Assembly: GCF_026157105.1 (NCBI RefSeq)
Contig: NZ_JANPVQ010000001.1
Location: forward strand, 1,419,501-1,483,500
Length of the DNA stretch: 64,000 nt
Reading direction: 5' to 3'
DNA from: Sphingomicrobium marinum
GTDB taxonomy: Bacteria; Pseudomonadota; Alphaproteobacteria; Sphingomonadales; Sphingomonadaceae
Numbering within the stretch: the stretch's first letter is position 1; each line of letters begins with the position of its first letter. This document shows, piece after piece, positions 4,061-14,300 of the stretch. The position numbers were made by a program, and so were the translations under genes. The notes beneath the pieces were generated by a model. It ran no database searches. It saw nothing but the letters and a program-made list of their open reading frames with translations, and was not told where the DNA came from.

Positions 4061-5208
4061 CAAGCCATGCCGAGCAATTGCTTGAATCCGATCCAGGCGC
4101 GGCGGAAGAAGCCCGCTTCCTCGACCGCTTCAGCCGCCACCAGCGGCAACACCGCCTCGTCACCGTCGGTGGTCACGACGAGCTGGGCAACCTGCTGGCC
4201 TTTTTCGATCGGTGCCATGATCGGCCCGTCATAACGGATCTTCACGCTGGGCGTCGCAAAAGCATTGGCCGGGAAGGTCACCGCTAGGTCGCGCGGCGCC
4301 ACCAGCGCGACACTATCCGCGCTGCCCATCTGCACCCGCGCGCTGCCGACCGTTGCACCCTTGGCATAGAGCGAACGCGCGCTCCAGTTGTTGAAGCCCC
4401 ATTCGATCAGTCGCACCGATTCCTGGGTACGTGCCGACTGGCTGTCGAGCCCGGCAACGACCATGACCAATCGACGCCCATCACGTTCGGCCGAACCGGT
4501 GAAGCCGTAGCCCGCTTCTTCGGTGTGACCGGTCTTGAGACCATCCGCGCCTTCTACGCGCCCGAACAGCGGATTGCGGTTGGGCTGCGTGATTGGCTCG
4601 CCGCCCTGCGTTTCGCCCCAGGTGAATTCGCGCTTGCCATAATATTTGGCGTAGAGCTCGGGATGGTTGTCGATCCCGGCGCGGGCCAGCGTGGCCAGGT
4701 CGCGCGCCGTCACCACCGTACGGCCTTCATCGGGCCACCCGTTGACGTTGCCGAAGCGACTATTCTTGAGGCCAAGCTCGCTGGCGAGCTTATTCATCTG
4801 CTCGACATAGGCCTGCTCGGTCCCGGCGACACATTCGGCCAGCACGACCGATGCGTCGTTGCCCGACAAGGTGACGATACCGTTGAGAAGGTTTTCGATG
4901 CTGACCTGCTCGTTGACCTTGAGGAACATGGTCGAACCCGCATTGCTCCACTGCCGCCACGTCTCGGGACGCACGGTGCACATCTTCTGCTCGTCCAGCT
5001 TGCCTTCGGCGATCAGTTTGAAAGCCAGTTCAGTGGTCATCATCTTGGCCATCGACGCCGGCGGAATCTGCCGGTCAGCGTCCTTTTCCAAAAGAACGCG
5101 GCCTGACGACAGGTCGATCAAATAGGCGATCGGCGCTTCGGTTTCGAACGTCGGAGACGCGATTGCCACGGCGGGCAGCGCAAGGGCGGCAAGAAATAGC
5201 GGACGCAT
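4060..5208 (-). CDS. D-alanyl-D-alanine carboxypeptidase (PBP5/6 family, S11)
   Basis: A periplasmic penicillin-binding protein that trims the terminal D-Ala from peptidoglycan pentapeptides. It has an N-terminal signal peptide (MRPLFLAALALPAVAIAS). The three active-site motifs are present: SMAK (Ser52, Lys55), SGN in LSGNDASV, and KTG in GLKTGHTEEAGY. A C-terminal beta-domain and an amphipathic tail (FFRRAWIGFKQLLGMA) suit membrane association, as in DacA/DacC. The ATG at 5208 is chosen over the GTG at 5214 because GGAG lies about five bases upstream of the ATG. The length of 382 residues is normal. It sits beside another wall enzyme (5275-6378). Confidence 0.93.
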   Translation of the reverse strand: MRPLFLAALALPAVAIASPTFETEAPIAYLIDLSSGRVLLEKDADRQIPPASMAKMMTTELAFKLIAEGKLDEQKMCTVRPETWRQWSNAGSTMFLKVNEQVSIENLLNGIVTLSGNDASVVLAECVAGTEQAYVEQMNKLASELGLKNSRFGNVNGWPDEGRTVVTARDLATLARAGIDNHPELYAKYYGKREFTWGETQGGEPITQPNRNPLFGRVEGADGLKTGHTEEAGYGFTGSAERDGRRLVMVVAGLDSQSARTQESVRLIEWGFNNWSARSLYAKGATVGSARVQMGSADSVALVAPRDLAVTFPANAFATPSVKIRYDGPIMAPIEKGQQVAQLVVTTDGDEAVLPLVAAEAVEEAGFFRRAWIGFKQLLGMA

Positions 5209-10806: not shown

Positions 10807-12747
10807 ATGATCGAAGACGACTGCCACGATGATGAAGCGCAGAAGGGCGCGGAAAGCGTCTTCGTCAGCTATAGCCGCGAAAACGAAGACGCGGCACAGC
10901 GGATCGTGCGCCTGCTCGAAGCGCAGGGCTTCGACGTGTGGTGGGATGCGCTCATCCAGGGCGGCAATCGTTTTGCCGATCTTATCGAGGCCAAGCTCGA
11001 CCAGTCGGACAAGGTGGTGGTGCTGTGGTCATCGAGCGCGGTGCGCTCGGAATGGGTGACCGACGAAGCCACGAAGGGCCGCGACGCGGGCAAGCTTATC
11101 CCCGTCACGCTCGATGGCACCCAACCCCCAATGGGCTTTCGCCAGCACCAAATGATCGATGCAAGCCAGTCCGATTTCACGGCTGGAGACACCGCGATGC
11201 AGGCGCTCATCAAGGCGCTGTGGGCGGAGGGTGTGTCCGAATGGGCGGGCGACCTTCCGCCGGGCGAGACACGCGTTTCGCGCCGCAGCTTGCTGATTGG
11301 CGGCGGCGTGGTAAGCGCGCTGGTCGCAGGCGGCGGCCTTGTCGCCTTTGGGGACAAGATATTCGGCCCCGGTCCGAACGATCGCAGCATCGCCGTGCTC
11401 CCGTTCAGCAATCTGAACGAGGATAGCGAACAGGCCTATTTCTCGACCGGGCTCGCAGAAGAATTGCGCACCCGGCTTGGGCTGCACCCCGATATCCTGG
11501 TCGCCGCGCAGACCAGTTCGGAAACGGTGGCAGAGCTCCAGTTGGATGCCCAGCAGATCGCATCGCGTCTGAAAGTCGCCAACGTCCTCGAAGGCAGCGT
11601 TCGACGCGGTGACGGGCTCGTGCGCGTAGTCTTGCGCCTGGTAGACGGCCGTGACGGGTTCGAACGCTGGAGCGATAGTCTTGACCGGCCTTTCGACGCC
11701 CTACTCGAACTGCAGCAGGACATTGCCGACCTCGTCGCCGACCAACTGGCGGTGCAGCTCGCCAAATCCAGTGCGGGCGATGCGACGGGCGGGACGCGGT
11801 CGGCACAGGCGCTCGATGCGTATCTGGAGGGAGCGGAACTCTATCGCCAGGCTGTCGATGAAAGCACCGATCGCCGCGCCCTGGCCTTGTATGGCAAGGC
11901 GCTCGAACTCGATCCGGAATATGCGGCAGCGCACGCCGCACGCGCCCGCGCACTCACGGTTATCGCAAGCAATTATTCGCGCGGCGAGGAACTGGCGCCG
12001 CTATATGCGGAAGCGCTGGTCGCGGCGCGTCGGTCGGTCGAGATCGCACCGCAATTTAGCACCGGCCACAGCGCGCTCGGTTTCGTGCTGGCCAACGGCA
12101 TGCTCGACATTCGCGGTGCGCGCGCCGCCTATCTCGAAAGCTATCGGACCGGCTTCGGCAATGCCGACATCCTGTCCGGGTTCGCCAATTTCGGTGCGCG
12201 TGCCGGCGATCTCGAAGAGGCGCGCGACGCCGTTTTTCGAGCCAAGCAGCTCGATCCGCTCAACGCCCAGCACTGGCGCAATGCCGCCTTGATCGAAATG
12301 AATGCCGGCGACTTCGCTGCCGCCCGCGAACAATGCCGCCAAGCGCTGGCAATCAACGACGATGCGCGTAGCGTTATGGGGTTCCTCGGCACCATGGCAC
12401 TGCTCGAAGGGGCCGTGGAAACCGCCAAGGAATATTTCGAAAAGGAGCCTAGCGGACTGACCAGAAATCGCGGTTTAGCGATTGTAGCGGCGCGCGAGGG
12501 CAATGACGCGGAAAGCGCCGTCTATCGTCAGAACCTGGAGCGCGAATATGGCGATAATGCGCTCTACCAACTCGCGCAGGTCGATGCGCAGACCGGGGCG
12601 CCCGAAGCAGCGCTCGACAAGCTGGAGCGCGCTTACGAGGCCGGCGATAGCGGGCTGGTGCAGTCCTATCTCGATCCACTCTTGGAGCCAATCCGTAGCC
12701 AAGAGCGATTTCAGGCCTTAATGGAGAAGCTCGGTTTCGAAGCCTGA
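10807..12747 (+). CDS. TIR domain-transmembrane-TolB-like-TPR protein
   Basis: The 646-residue protein has four parts. A cytosolic TIR domain spans about residues 17-145: it begins SVFVSYSRENEDAA, has GFDVWWDALIQGGNRF, and has SSSAVRSEWVTDE, whose Glu87 aligns with the catalytic glutamate of NAD-cleaving TIRs. A single transmembrane helix follows at about 158-180 (SLLIGGGVVSALVAGGGLVAF). Next comes a TolB-like/FlgO-like segment beginning SIAVLPFSNLNEDSE. The C-terminal half is TPR repeats, for example ALALYGKALELDPEYAAAHAARARAL. Similar TM-IAVLPF-TPR backbones are fused to cyclase, HTH or kinase domains in other proteobacteria, suggesting a sensor with an interchangeable output. NADase activity or adaptor function is inference. 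The small lipoprotein at 12769 follows closely. Confidence 0.88.
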   Translation: MIEDDCHDDEAQKGAESVFVSYSRENEDAAQRIVRLLEAQGFDVWWDALIQGGNRFADLIEAKLDQSDKVVVLWSSSAVRSEWVTDEATKGRDAGKLIPVTLDGTQPPMGFRQHQMIDASQSDFTAGDTAMQALIKALWAEGVSEWAGDLPPGETRVSRRSLLIGGGVVSALVAGGGLVAFGDKIFGPGPNDRSIAVLPFSNLNEDSEQAYFSTGLAEELRTRLGLHPDILVAAQTSSETVAELQLDAQQIASRLKVANVLEGSVRRGDGLVRVVLRLVDGRDGFERWSDSLDRPFDALLELQQDIADLVADQLAVQLAKSSAGDATGGTRSAQALDAYLEGAELYRQAVDESTDRRALALYGKALELDPEYAAAHAARARALTVIASNYSRGEELAPLYAEALVAARRSVEIAPQFSTGHSALGFVLANGMLDIRGARAAYLESYRTGFGNADILSGFANFGARAGDLEEARDAVFRAKQLDPLNAQHWRNAALIEMNAGDFAAAREQCRQALAINDDARSVMGFLGTMALLEGAVETAKEYFEKEPSGLTRNRGLAIVAAREGNDAESAVYRQNLEREYGDNALYQLAQVDAQTGAPEAALDKLERAYEAGDSGLVQSYLDPLLEPIRSQERFQALMEKLGFEA

Positions 12748-12768
12748 CGAAACCAACAAAGGGGACCA

Positions 12769-12987
12769 ATGATGAAAAAGACCATGATCACTGCCATCCT
12801 GGCGTCTAGCGCACTGGGCCTCGCGGCCTGCGCATCGCCCGAAGAGGAAACCGCGACCGAGGAAGCAACCGAAGAGGTGGTTGACGATACAGCGATGGAA
12901 GAAGAGCCGATGGACGTCGGCAATGAATTGGGCAACGAGACCGATGACGACGATCGCGGCGGCGACGACGATCGTACTGTCGAGTAG
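12769..12987 (+). CDS. Small acidic lipoprotein, function unknown
   Basis: A 72-residue protein starting MMKKTMITAILASSALGLAA, with the lipobox LAAC and the mature part starting at Cys. After the cysteine almost every third residue is Asp or Glu (for example PEEETATEEATEEVVDD, and a DDDDRGGDDDR tail), so the mature chain is highly acidic and probably unstructured. Ribosome binding site GGGG lies four bases upstream. It follows the TIR-TPR gene by 21 bases and is closed by a hairpin terminator, so the two may be co-transcribed. No domain is recognisable. Very acidic short lipoproteins recur in Sphingomonadales, but no function is known to me. Confidence 0.75.
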   Translation: MMKKTMITAILASSALGLAACASPEEETATEEATEEVVDDTAMEEEPMDVGNELGNETDDDDRGGDDDRTVE

Positions 12988-13009
12988 TTTCCCTCTAGGC
13001 ATAATTATC

Positions 13010-13044
13010 GGGCGGCGGCGCATTTGCGGTGCCGCCCGTTCTCT
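13010..13044 (+). terminator. Hairpin terminator after the acidic lipoprotein gene
   Basis: GGGCGGC (13010-13016) pairs with GCCGCCC (13031-13037), with further G-C pairs inside, and GTTCTCTT follows. The stem is strong; the U-tract is imperfect. Confidence 0.6.
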
Positions 13045-13100
13045 TGTCGATTGACCGCTTTTGGCTAGCGCCCCTCTCCTTGCGGCGCTAAAGCGCGCCC

Positions 13101-14300
13101 ATGCTACAGAAATCTTCCAAGACAATCGTCCCGTTTGATTGGACCGACCCGTTCGACCTTGAAAGCCAGCTCAGCGATGAGGAGCGCATGGTTCGCGACA
13201 CCGCGCATGCCTTCGCGCAGGAACAATTGCTGCCCAACGTCAAGCAGGCCTTCATGGATGATGCCTTCGACCCCGACATCATGCCCAAGATGGGCGAACT
13301 TGGCCTCTTGGGAGCGACGGTGGACGAGGAATATGGCGGCGCCGGGCTCGGCTATGTCAGCTACGGCCTGATCGCACGCGAGATCGAGCGCGTGGACAGC
13401 GGCTATCGCAGCGCCTGTTCAGTCCAGTCGAGCCTCGTGATGCACCCGATCAACGCCTACGGATCGGAAGAGCAAAAGAAAAAGTGGCTGCCGCAGCTGG
13501 CTGCGGGCACCAAGGTCGGCTGTTTTGGCCTCACCGAACCTGATGCGGGTTCCGACCCCGGCGGCATGCGCACCCGCGCCAAGAAGGTCGATGGCGGCTA
13601 TGTCCTCAATGGCGCCAAGATGTGGATCACCAACTCGCCGATCGCCGATGTCTTCGTGGTCTGGGCGAAATCGGATGCGCATGACGGCAAAATCCGCGGC
13701 TTCCTGCTCGAAAAGGGTATGAAGGGCCTGTCCGCGCCCAAGGTGAAGGACAAGCTGAGCCTGCGCGCCTCGATCACTGGCGAAATCGTGATGGACAATG
13801 TCGAAGTCGGCGAAGACGCGCTGCTTCCCAATGTCGAAGGGCTGAAAGGCCCGTTCGGATGCCTCAACGTCGCGCGCTATGGCATCAGCTGGGGCGCCAT
13901 GGGTGCTGCCGAAGCATGCTTCGCTGCCGCGCGCGACTATATGCTCGAGCGCAAGCAATTCGATCGCCCGCTCGCCGCCAACCAGATACCGCAATTGAAG
14001 TTTGCCAACATGCTCACCGAGATCGCGCTTGGCCTGCAGGCTAGCCTGCGCGTCGGTCGTCGGCTCGAGGCGGGCGAGCTCGATCCGGTCGCGATCAGCG
14101 TGATCAAGCGCAACAATTGCGGCAAGGCGCTGGATATCGCCCGCACCGCGCGCGACATGCTCGGCGGTAACGGCATTTCGGCCGAATATCCGGTGATGCG
14201 CCACGCGCTCAATCTCGAAACGGTCAACACCTATGAAGGTACGCACGATGTGCATGCGCTCATCATCGGGCGCGCCATCACCGGGATTTCGGCTTTTTAG
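13101..14300 (+). CDS. gcdH: Glutaryl-CoA dehydrogenase
   Basis: A FAD-dependent acyl-CoA dehydrogenase that oxidises and decarboxylates glutaryl-CoA to crotonyl-CoA in lysine/tryptophan breakdown. Among acyl-CoA dehydrogenases, the stretches [15 protein letters not shown] (with the substrate-binding Arg), [40 protein letters not shown]-like [16 protein letters not shown] and [18 protein letters not shown] match the glutaryl-CoA-specific subfamily, including the human enzyme. The Glu in YEGTHD is the catalytic base. At 399 residues it is full length and without a targeting peptide. It is a single gene with its own upstream region; no glutarate transport or crotonase gene adjoins it. Confidence 0.95.

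Follow-up and report, generated by a model that had tools for sequence, protein, structure and literature searches.

A gene in the window (the whole 64,000-nucleotide stretch of DNA analysed here) that joins a TIR domain to a membrane helix and a TPR region may encode the receptor in an envelope signalling module of three parts, the other two being a small lipoprotein or peptide and an exported protease, a reading to which we give even chances. Across orthologous loci the pocket of the protease covaries with the tail of the peptide, and receptor and protease occur together, including in genomes where their genes are unlinked.

Architecture of the proposed TIR receptor

The first-pass annotation had described a TIR domain joined through a membrane helix to an IAVLPF-type segment and TPR repeats, with a glutamate (Glu87) at the position used by NAD-cleaving TIRs; a 646-aa reading frame lies exactly where it had placed the gene, its residue numbering was right and each of these elements was recovered (Table 1). 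The TIR domain scored 80 bits against a Pfam TIR_2 cut-off of 28 and the TPRs also exceeded their Pfam cut-off; approximately residues 190-320, the IAVLPF domain, had no Pfam match. In the AlphaFold2 model of the window protein (five sequences) the TPR superhelix was confident, with the alpha/beta domain carrying the IAVLPF strand less certain. The hydrophobic membrane helix (approximately residues 162-180) is preceded by a twin arginine that is kept in 44-45 of 45 orthologues, and charge rules (positive-inside) together with these arginines predict that the TIR domain lies in the cytoplasm and the TolB/TPR part outside the membrane. The possibility that the twin arginine is peculiar to the protease-linked group was rejected, as four controls on the tree carry it too.

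Table 1 Features of the receptor gene and the adjacent small gene, in window coordinates
Feature	Position	Strand	Basis
TIR-membrane helix-TolB_N/FlgO-like-TPR receptor gene, 646 aa	10807..12747	+	ORF, profile search and model
TIR domain, residues 18-125	10858..11181	+	PF13676, E 2.4e-22; model and Foldseek
WxxxE motif W83-E87, with predicted NADase catalytic glutamate E87	11053..11067	+	Aligned with AbTIR/BtTIR; orthologue conservation
Twin arginine R159 R160, then single membrane helix	11281..11346	+	Topology from positive-inside rule
IAVLPF (TolB_N/FlgO-like) alpha/beta domain, ~residues 190-320	11374..11766	+	Model secondary structure, moderate confidence
TPR superhelix, ~residues 332-642	11800..12732	+	Pfam and model
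Small acidic lipoprotein, 72 aa, lipobox LAAC, tail ...TDDDDRGGDDDRTVE	12769-12987	+	AGGGG ribosome-binding-like site upstream

Because a full-length Foldseek search was swamped by the TPRs, the TIR domain was folded by itself (pLDDT 79.5), and the isolated model matched SPARTA TIR-APAZ (E 5.7e-6), AbTIR (1.7e-5) and SARM1 (3.2e-5). The motif around Glu87, W83-V-T-D-E87, pairs with the WxxxE of AbTIR in the sequence-search alignment, placing E87 opposite Glu208, the catalytic residue of AbTIR (PMC10022894). E87 was kept in all 45 orthologues having this column filled and W83 in 43 of the 45. From the conserved glutamate and the fold, the window TIR is predicted to be an NADase. The same structural search also returned MyD88 and TLR TIRs, as might be expected of a non-enzymatic scaffold for protein-protein interaction (some TIR domains, MyD88-like, merely assemble), but the invariance of E87 in 45 orthologues, the retention of W83 in 43 and the presence of NAD-cleaving TIRs among the top structural matches make such a scaffold quite improbable and favour the enzymatic reading.

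Distribution and genomic context

The named relatives are sphingomonads (a Sphingomonas MAG at 92%, Parerythrobacter and Erythrobacter) and one xanthomonad. We split orthologues from paralogues by score (at least 664 bits in the order, the next at 613 or below), and the 46 orthologous loci compared below are from Sphingomonadaceae and one xanthomonad. The orthologue was present in 16 of the 61 genomes from the genus and in 35 of the 301 from the order, and a class sample (289 genomes, E 1e-100) had matches only in the window's own genome and in G043, of the same family. An orthologue at 42% in Pseudoxanthomonas gei, a member of the Gammaproteobacteria, makes it likely that the gene has moved between classes. 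The position of the window locus is common only to G151 and G168, the remaining orthologues with compared flanks sitting elsewhere; several adjoin a tRNA gene, either tRNA-Arg-CCG (L018, L104) or tRNA-Gly-CCC (L020, L084, L088, L100). Such patchiness and relocation are what one would expect of an accessory system, and the patchy, mostly non-syntenic occurrence would be compatible with an anti-phage role.

The first-pass annotation had also stated that no defence genes neighbour the receptor. This holds for the long flanking genes, which by inspection encode an FMN-dependent glutamate-synthase-like protein, an acyl-CoA dehydrogenase, LemA and a DUF2207-like protein; a defence island at the window locus was rejected, the long neighbours being of housekeeping type and syntenic in G151 and G168 only, and a search with PADLOC for anti-phage systems gave weak matches only. 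It does not hold for the picture of an isolated protein: a lipoprotein gene, absent from that annotation, begins 21 nt downstream, a protease gene is adjacent in 36 of the 46 orthologous loci and SLOG-type genes are often nearby.

That annotation likewise lacked the protease partner and the 13 further TIR_2 proteins in the window's genome (G000, 2.24 Mb), whose total of 14 is the most among the 151 family genomes sampled (range in same-genus genomes, 0 to 18). Twelve of the 14 are TIR-TolB_N-TPR-like or near (9 with and 3 without a membrane helix), one is TIR-FHA-like and one TIR-TPR. Apart from window position 10807, the sites on its contig C1 are 434173, 951897-957368, 996403-1000364, 1003071, 1030407, 1689220, 1816381-1819883, 1854577 and 2049604, and several of the genes are tandem copies that abut or overlap. 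One tandem copy (L009 4437-6397; C1:951436-953396), of 499 aa with an out-of-family tail, looks frame-broken, its absent C-terminal part being found in another frame (4437-4958). At C1:2049604-2050452 (L015 6605-7453) a TIR domain is followed by an apparent FHA domain, and a similar domain pair occurs at L089 9613-10521.

A small lipoprotein or repeat peptide follows the receptor gene

Downstream of the TIR gene, 44 of the 46 orthologous loci encode a small lipoprotein or a leaderless repeat peptide, on the same strand and, in the loci measured, with a start ~20-130 nt past the TIR stop; L080 had no downstream peptide gene. Thirty-four of these 44 partners are lipoproteins with a signal peptide, a lipobox and an acidic or Ala/Asn-rich stalk (L091 tallied here by reading), and 10 are leaderless peptides. 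The 72-aa lipoprotein of the window, a candidate protease substrate or ligand precursor, differs from its counterpart at L017 by 4/4/24 changes at the three codon positions over 50 codons. A 135-aa antisense ORF (window 12718-13125, minus strand) overlies the lipoprotein gene and probably just reflects coding on the opposite strand.

Eight repeat arrays were compared unit by unit, among them (GSGDDR)5 at L082, (SSGDGR)5 at L085 and (TNPDDR)5 at L081. Differences between units fall 4/4/230 on codon positions 1/2/3; the arrays are thus coding, and non-coding tandem repeats or terminators were rejected on these counts. Arrays end with an Arg immediately before the stop codon in L081, L082, L085, L087, L088, L090, L092 and L100. 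The leaderless repeat peptides (L082, L084, L085, L087, L088, L090, L100, L103, L107 and L110) fall in two clades. Upstream frames of several were read for a signal peptide that a mistaken start might have missed, and none was found.

Co-occurrence with a chymotrypsin-type protease

A chymotrypsin-type S1 protease was encoded in 41 of the 46 orthologue genomes, and in 36 its gene adjoined the TIR locus; none was found in the orthologue genomes G206, G334, G075, G331 and G005. Where read, the N-termini of the partner proteases are signal-peptide-like. In the window's genome the partner (C1:1810243-1811244) is unlinked to the TIR gene and matches PF00089 at E 6.4e-45. The Ser195 motif GDSGGP, the His57 motif TAAHC and the Asp189 of trypsin specificity, read from sequence, likewise place the partner protease in the S1 chymotrypsin family. 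A divergent gene beside the protease gene of the window's genome (both within C1:1808146-1811244; L097 6147-9245) has a signal-peptide-like start, a caspase domain (PF00656, E 7.6e-25) and a Sel1 repeat, and such a caspase-domain gene adjoins the protease in G151 and G168 too.

The protease was present in the genomes of 34/34 lipoprotein-type loci versus 6/10 leaderless ones (p=0.0015), the leaderless loci for which no chymotrypsin-type protease was found being L084, L103, L107 and L110. Closely similar paralogues lacked these partners: no lipoprotein, repeat peptide or protease was seen at 10 paralogous TIR control loci (L093-L096, L132-L135, L137, L138), and no chymotrypsin-type protease at the paralogue loci L009-L014 of the window's own genome. 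Within the genus, 15 genomes had both the TIR orthologue and a strong chymotrypsin-type match, 1 had the TIR gene only, 0 the protease only and 44 neither (Fisher 3e-13, leaving out G160, whose genes are broken). This co-occurrence is more telling because the protease is unlinked to the TIR gene in G000, G151 and G168. Both genes are frame-broken in G160, but its assembly is 86% complete and in two contigs, and we did not use this apparent joint pseudogenisation because sequencing error is as likely a cause.

Covariation of protease pocket and peptide tail

Residue 189 forms the bottom of the S1 pocket of such proteases, and Asp189 prefers Arg or Lys, with cleavage after Arg. The pocket of the partner protease covaries with the tail of the peptide. 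Where the protease has Asp189 (assigned by reading in L128), Arg lies within the last 25 peptide residues in 18/18 cases, compared with 2/22 for other residues (p=3.4e-9); Phe189 accompanies a D-Q or D-H tail end of the GS(T/N)D(Q/H) type in 6/6 cases, compared with 0/34 (p=2.6e-7); and Gln189 accompanies NP(I/V/L) in the tail in 10/10, compared with 4/30 (p=1.2e-6), all three p-values being descriptive and not tests of a prior prediction because the motif classes were named after the data had been seen. L082 (Asp189), L108 (Phe189) and L122 (Gln189) each exemplify one of these pocket classes. The clearest case of covariation is a pair of sister loci that switch together, L109 with Gly189 and a tail ending ...GNPIGE versus L120 with Asp189 and ...GNPIDR. 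Changes mapped on the TIR tree numbered 6 for the Asp189 trait and 7 for the Arg trait, and in a tree-aware test the two traits agreed in 4.6 of 5 independent pairs on average, with almost none opposite (minimum possible p=0.0625).

The same covariation is predicted if the lipoprotein or peptide is a substrate-like inhibitor or guard of the protease, held at the membrane by its lipid anchor, with the receptor monitoring the protease, either on its own or bound to the inhibitor, as might happen if an invader took the inhibitor away. The tails are low in complexity and in several lineages consist of many identical copies ending at an Arg-stop, features expected more of a substrate cut at many sites than of a folded inhibitor, and we consider an inhibitor or guard role unlikely.

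Exchangeable outputs and a SLOG-type companion

The first-pass annotation had named cyclase and HTH outputs on this backbone, and TolB_N/TPR proteins of other bacteria do carry different N-termini: cyclase (L023, L026), winged-helix (L022, L031) or kinase (L029). Its view of the protein as a membrane-spanning signalling protein of modular build, with TIR as the output, is supported by these swaps as well as by profile, alignment and fold. In G040 the receptor is TIR-less, with an N-terminal membrane segment, and a lipoprotein with an Arg-containing tail and an Asp189 protease are adjacent. Since this TIR-less version keeps its partners, the lipoprotein and protease seem to be part of the sensing half. 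Such a TIR-less receptor, in which an N-terminal membrane segment replaces the TIR and the lipoprotein and protease neighbours are kept, was seen at L136 (4862-6679 and neighbours) and in G074.

The G040 arrangement could also be read as that of a plain envelope stress or integrity sensor, whose ectodomain binds envelope components and whose protease and lipoprotein are periplasmic-pathway neighbours instead of a ligand source; the housekeeping genes alongside and the synteny kept within the subclade to which the window belongs would agree with this too. Co-occurrence without linkage, and the absence of lipoprotein and protease from closely similar paralogues, point instead to a specific functional link, and we give the plain sensor little credence compared with a receptor that has dedicated partners.

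A protein with a SLOG-like N-terminal and a membrane C-terminal part was encoded within the flanks of 21 of 29 further orthologue loci fetched, and of L018, a Parerythrobacter lutipelagi locus where the SLOG gene forms one contiguous run with the genes for receptor, peptide and protease; such a gene lies near about half of the orthologous loci. The SLOG/SLATT label rests on reading and weak scores, since neither Pfam nor PADLOC gave a family match and SLATT matched weakly. In the genus, the family was present in 44/61 genomes irrespective of the TIR orthologue, often beside other small TIR genes. An obligate partnership was rejected on this independence, and because the gene is present regardless of the orthologue, we treat it as a frequent, optional companion. 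In the window's genome the SLOG-type gene (436711-438516) lacks SIR2 and adjoins the gene of a different TIR protein: the pair (C1:434173-438516; L016 6174-10517) consists of a TIR-TPR gene that scores 41.5 bits for ThsB_TIR, above the cut-off, then the SLOG-like membrane protein. Such TIR and SLOG pairs recur across the genus.

Proposed mechanism

In the module as we propose it, the receptor would have its TIR NADase at the N-terminus, in the cytoplasm, then a single helix preceded by the twin arginine and, outside the membrane, a TolB_N-like and TPR domain. The second part would be the lipoprotein, or in some lineages the leaderless peptide, whose stalk is low in complexity and whose C-terminus carries a short motif or motif repeats. 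The third would be an exported chymotrypsin-fold serine protease, mostly encoded next door. The protease may cut the tail motif to give short peptides, such as GSGDDR hexapeptides ending in Arg, and the TPR/TolB ectodomain may sense the peptide, the tail or its cleavage state. With the signal running inwards, cytoplasmic assembly of TIR domains would follow and with it NAD+ cleavage, leading to depletion or to a cyclic ADP-ribose-type signal that the SLOG-type membrane protein could read. Multimerisation activates NAD+ cleavage in the TIR family. Standing against the module are the five orthologue genomes in which no chymotrypsin-type protease was found, the missing peptide gene at L080 and the 10 loci whose peptides have no signal peptide, although the protease appears to be exported; speculatively, release of such leaderless precursors upon lysis of kin cells would fit, the peptide then acting as a danger signal.

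The repeat arrays, the TPR ectodomain, the dedicated protease and the diversification of sequence between lineages would also suit cell-cell communication, in which repeat precursors release identical peptides for the TPR domains of neighbours to sense and the TIR domain drives an ordinary developmental or stress output; in Firmicutes, short peptides are recognised by the TPR receptors of the RRNPPA family (PMC9765709). Most precursors here are lipoproteins, however, and would remain membrane-bound, TIR NADases mostly serve cell death or immunity, and the module has no regulator gene, all of which leaves communication distinctly unlikely as the role of the envelope module.

Comparison with known systems

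Thoeris pairs a ThsB TIR with a SLOG-containing ThsA, and the present loci resemble it in having a TIR enzyme with a catalytic Glu and, at about half of them, a SLOG-type protein nearby. Thoeris TIRs, in contrast, stand outside membrane TolB/TPR receptors and, as far as known, have no peptide or protease partners, and the SLOG proteins here lack SIR2. Membership was rejected on scores (ThcB4 of type III, the best NCBIfam match, 38 bits against a cut-off of 220; ThsB_TIR 19.6 bits against 21.2), and no adjacent ThsA effector (SIR2-SLOG or macro-TM) was found at the window locus.

The RRNPPA receptors (Rap, PlcR, PrgX; PMC9765709) likewise use TPR domains to sense short peptides that proteases free from small precursors, but they are cytoplasmic, from Firmicutes, and have HTH or phosphatase outputs, whereas the TPR domain here is predicted to be extracytoplasmic, in Proteobacteria, with a TIR output; membership is rejected by that output and by the membrane helix. 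Tuck et al. described protease-activated pro-nucleases (PMC12799240), and their Hachiman/AVAST nuclease-protease pairs and caspase-nuclease loci are similar in that a trypsin-like protease co-evolves with the partner it activates in bacterial immunity. In those systems the protease, as a fusion with immune proteins, switches on a pro-nuclease; the protease of the present loci is separate, exported and accompanied by a lipoprotein or peptide. Kaur et al. listed trypsin- and TIR-containing conflict systems, with no receptor-peptide-protease module among them in the sections available (PMC7159879).

Proteins that join a cyclase, a CadC-type HTH or a kinase to TolB_N-TPR share the backbone and its swappable N-terminal output; the present group differs in its TIR output, and its peptide and protease partners are specific to one orthologue group. 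No description of the receptor-peptide-protease combination was found in the open-licence papers searched. The parts of the module are of known kinds, and the combination would be categorically new only if the functional link between them is real.

The bacterial TIR systems known to us sense infection within the cell, and the module, if true, would place TIR signalling at the cell envelope. In the Toll/Spaetzle pathway of animals, a secreted chymotrypsin-fold protease cleaves a ligand precursor, and a single-pass receptor carries a cytoplasmic TIR domain. On paper the proposed bacterial logic is the same (protease, precursor, single-pass TIR receptor), although here the TIR is N-terminal, the opposite order, TPRs take the place of LRRs and short peptides that of a cystine-knot ligand; we draw an analogy only and claim no homology of the pathways. 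Because the protease pocket of the TIR receptor's own partner changes with the peptide, a receptor pathway set off by a protease, similar to Toll, may exist in bacteria. In its full form, a Toll-like envelope pathway in which the protease makes peptide ligands, the TIR receptor responds, an NAD-derived signal opens the SLOG effector and protease and ligand co-diversify is a tentative proposal, well short of an even chance. Bacteria would then have a counterpart of the Toll signalling that a protease triggers, and the pocket/tail covariation makes its cleavage step directly testable.
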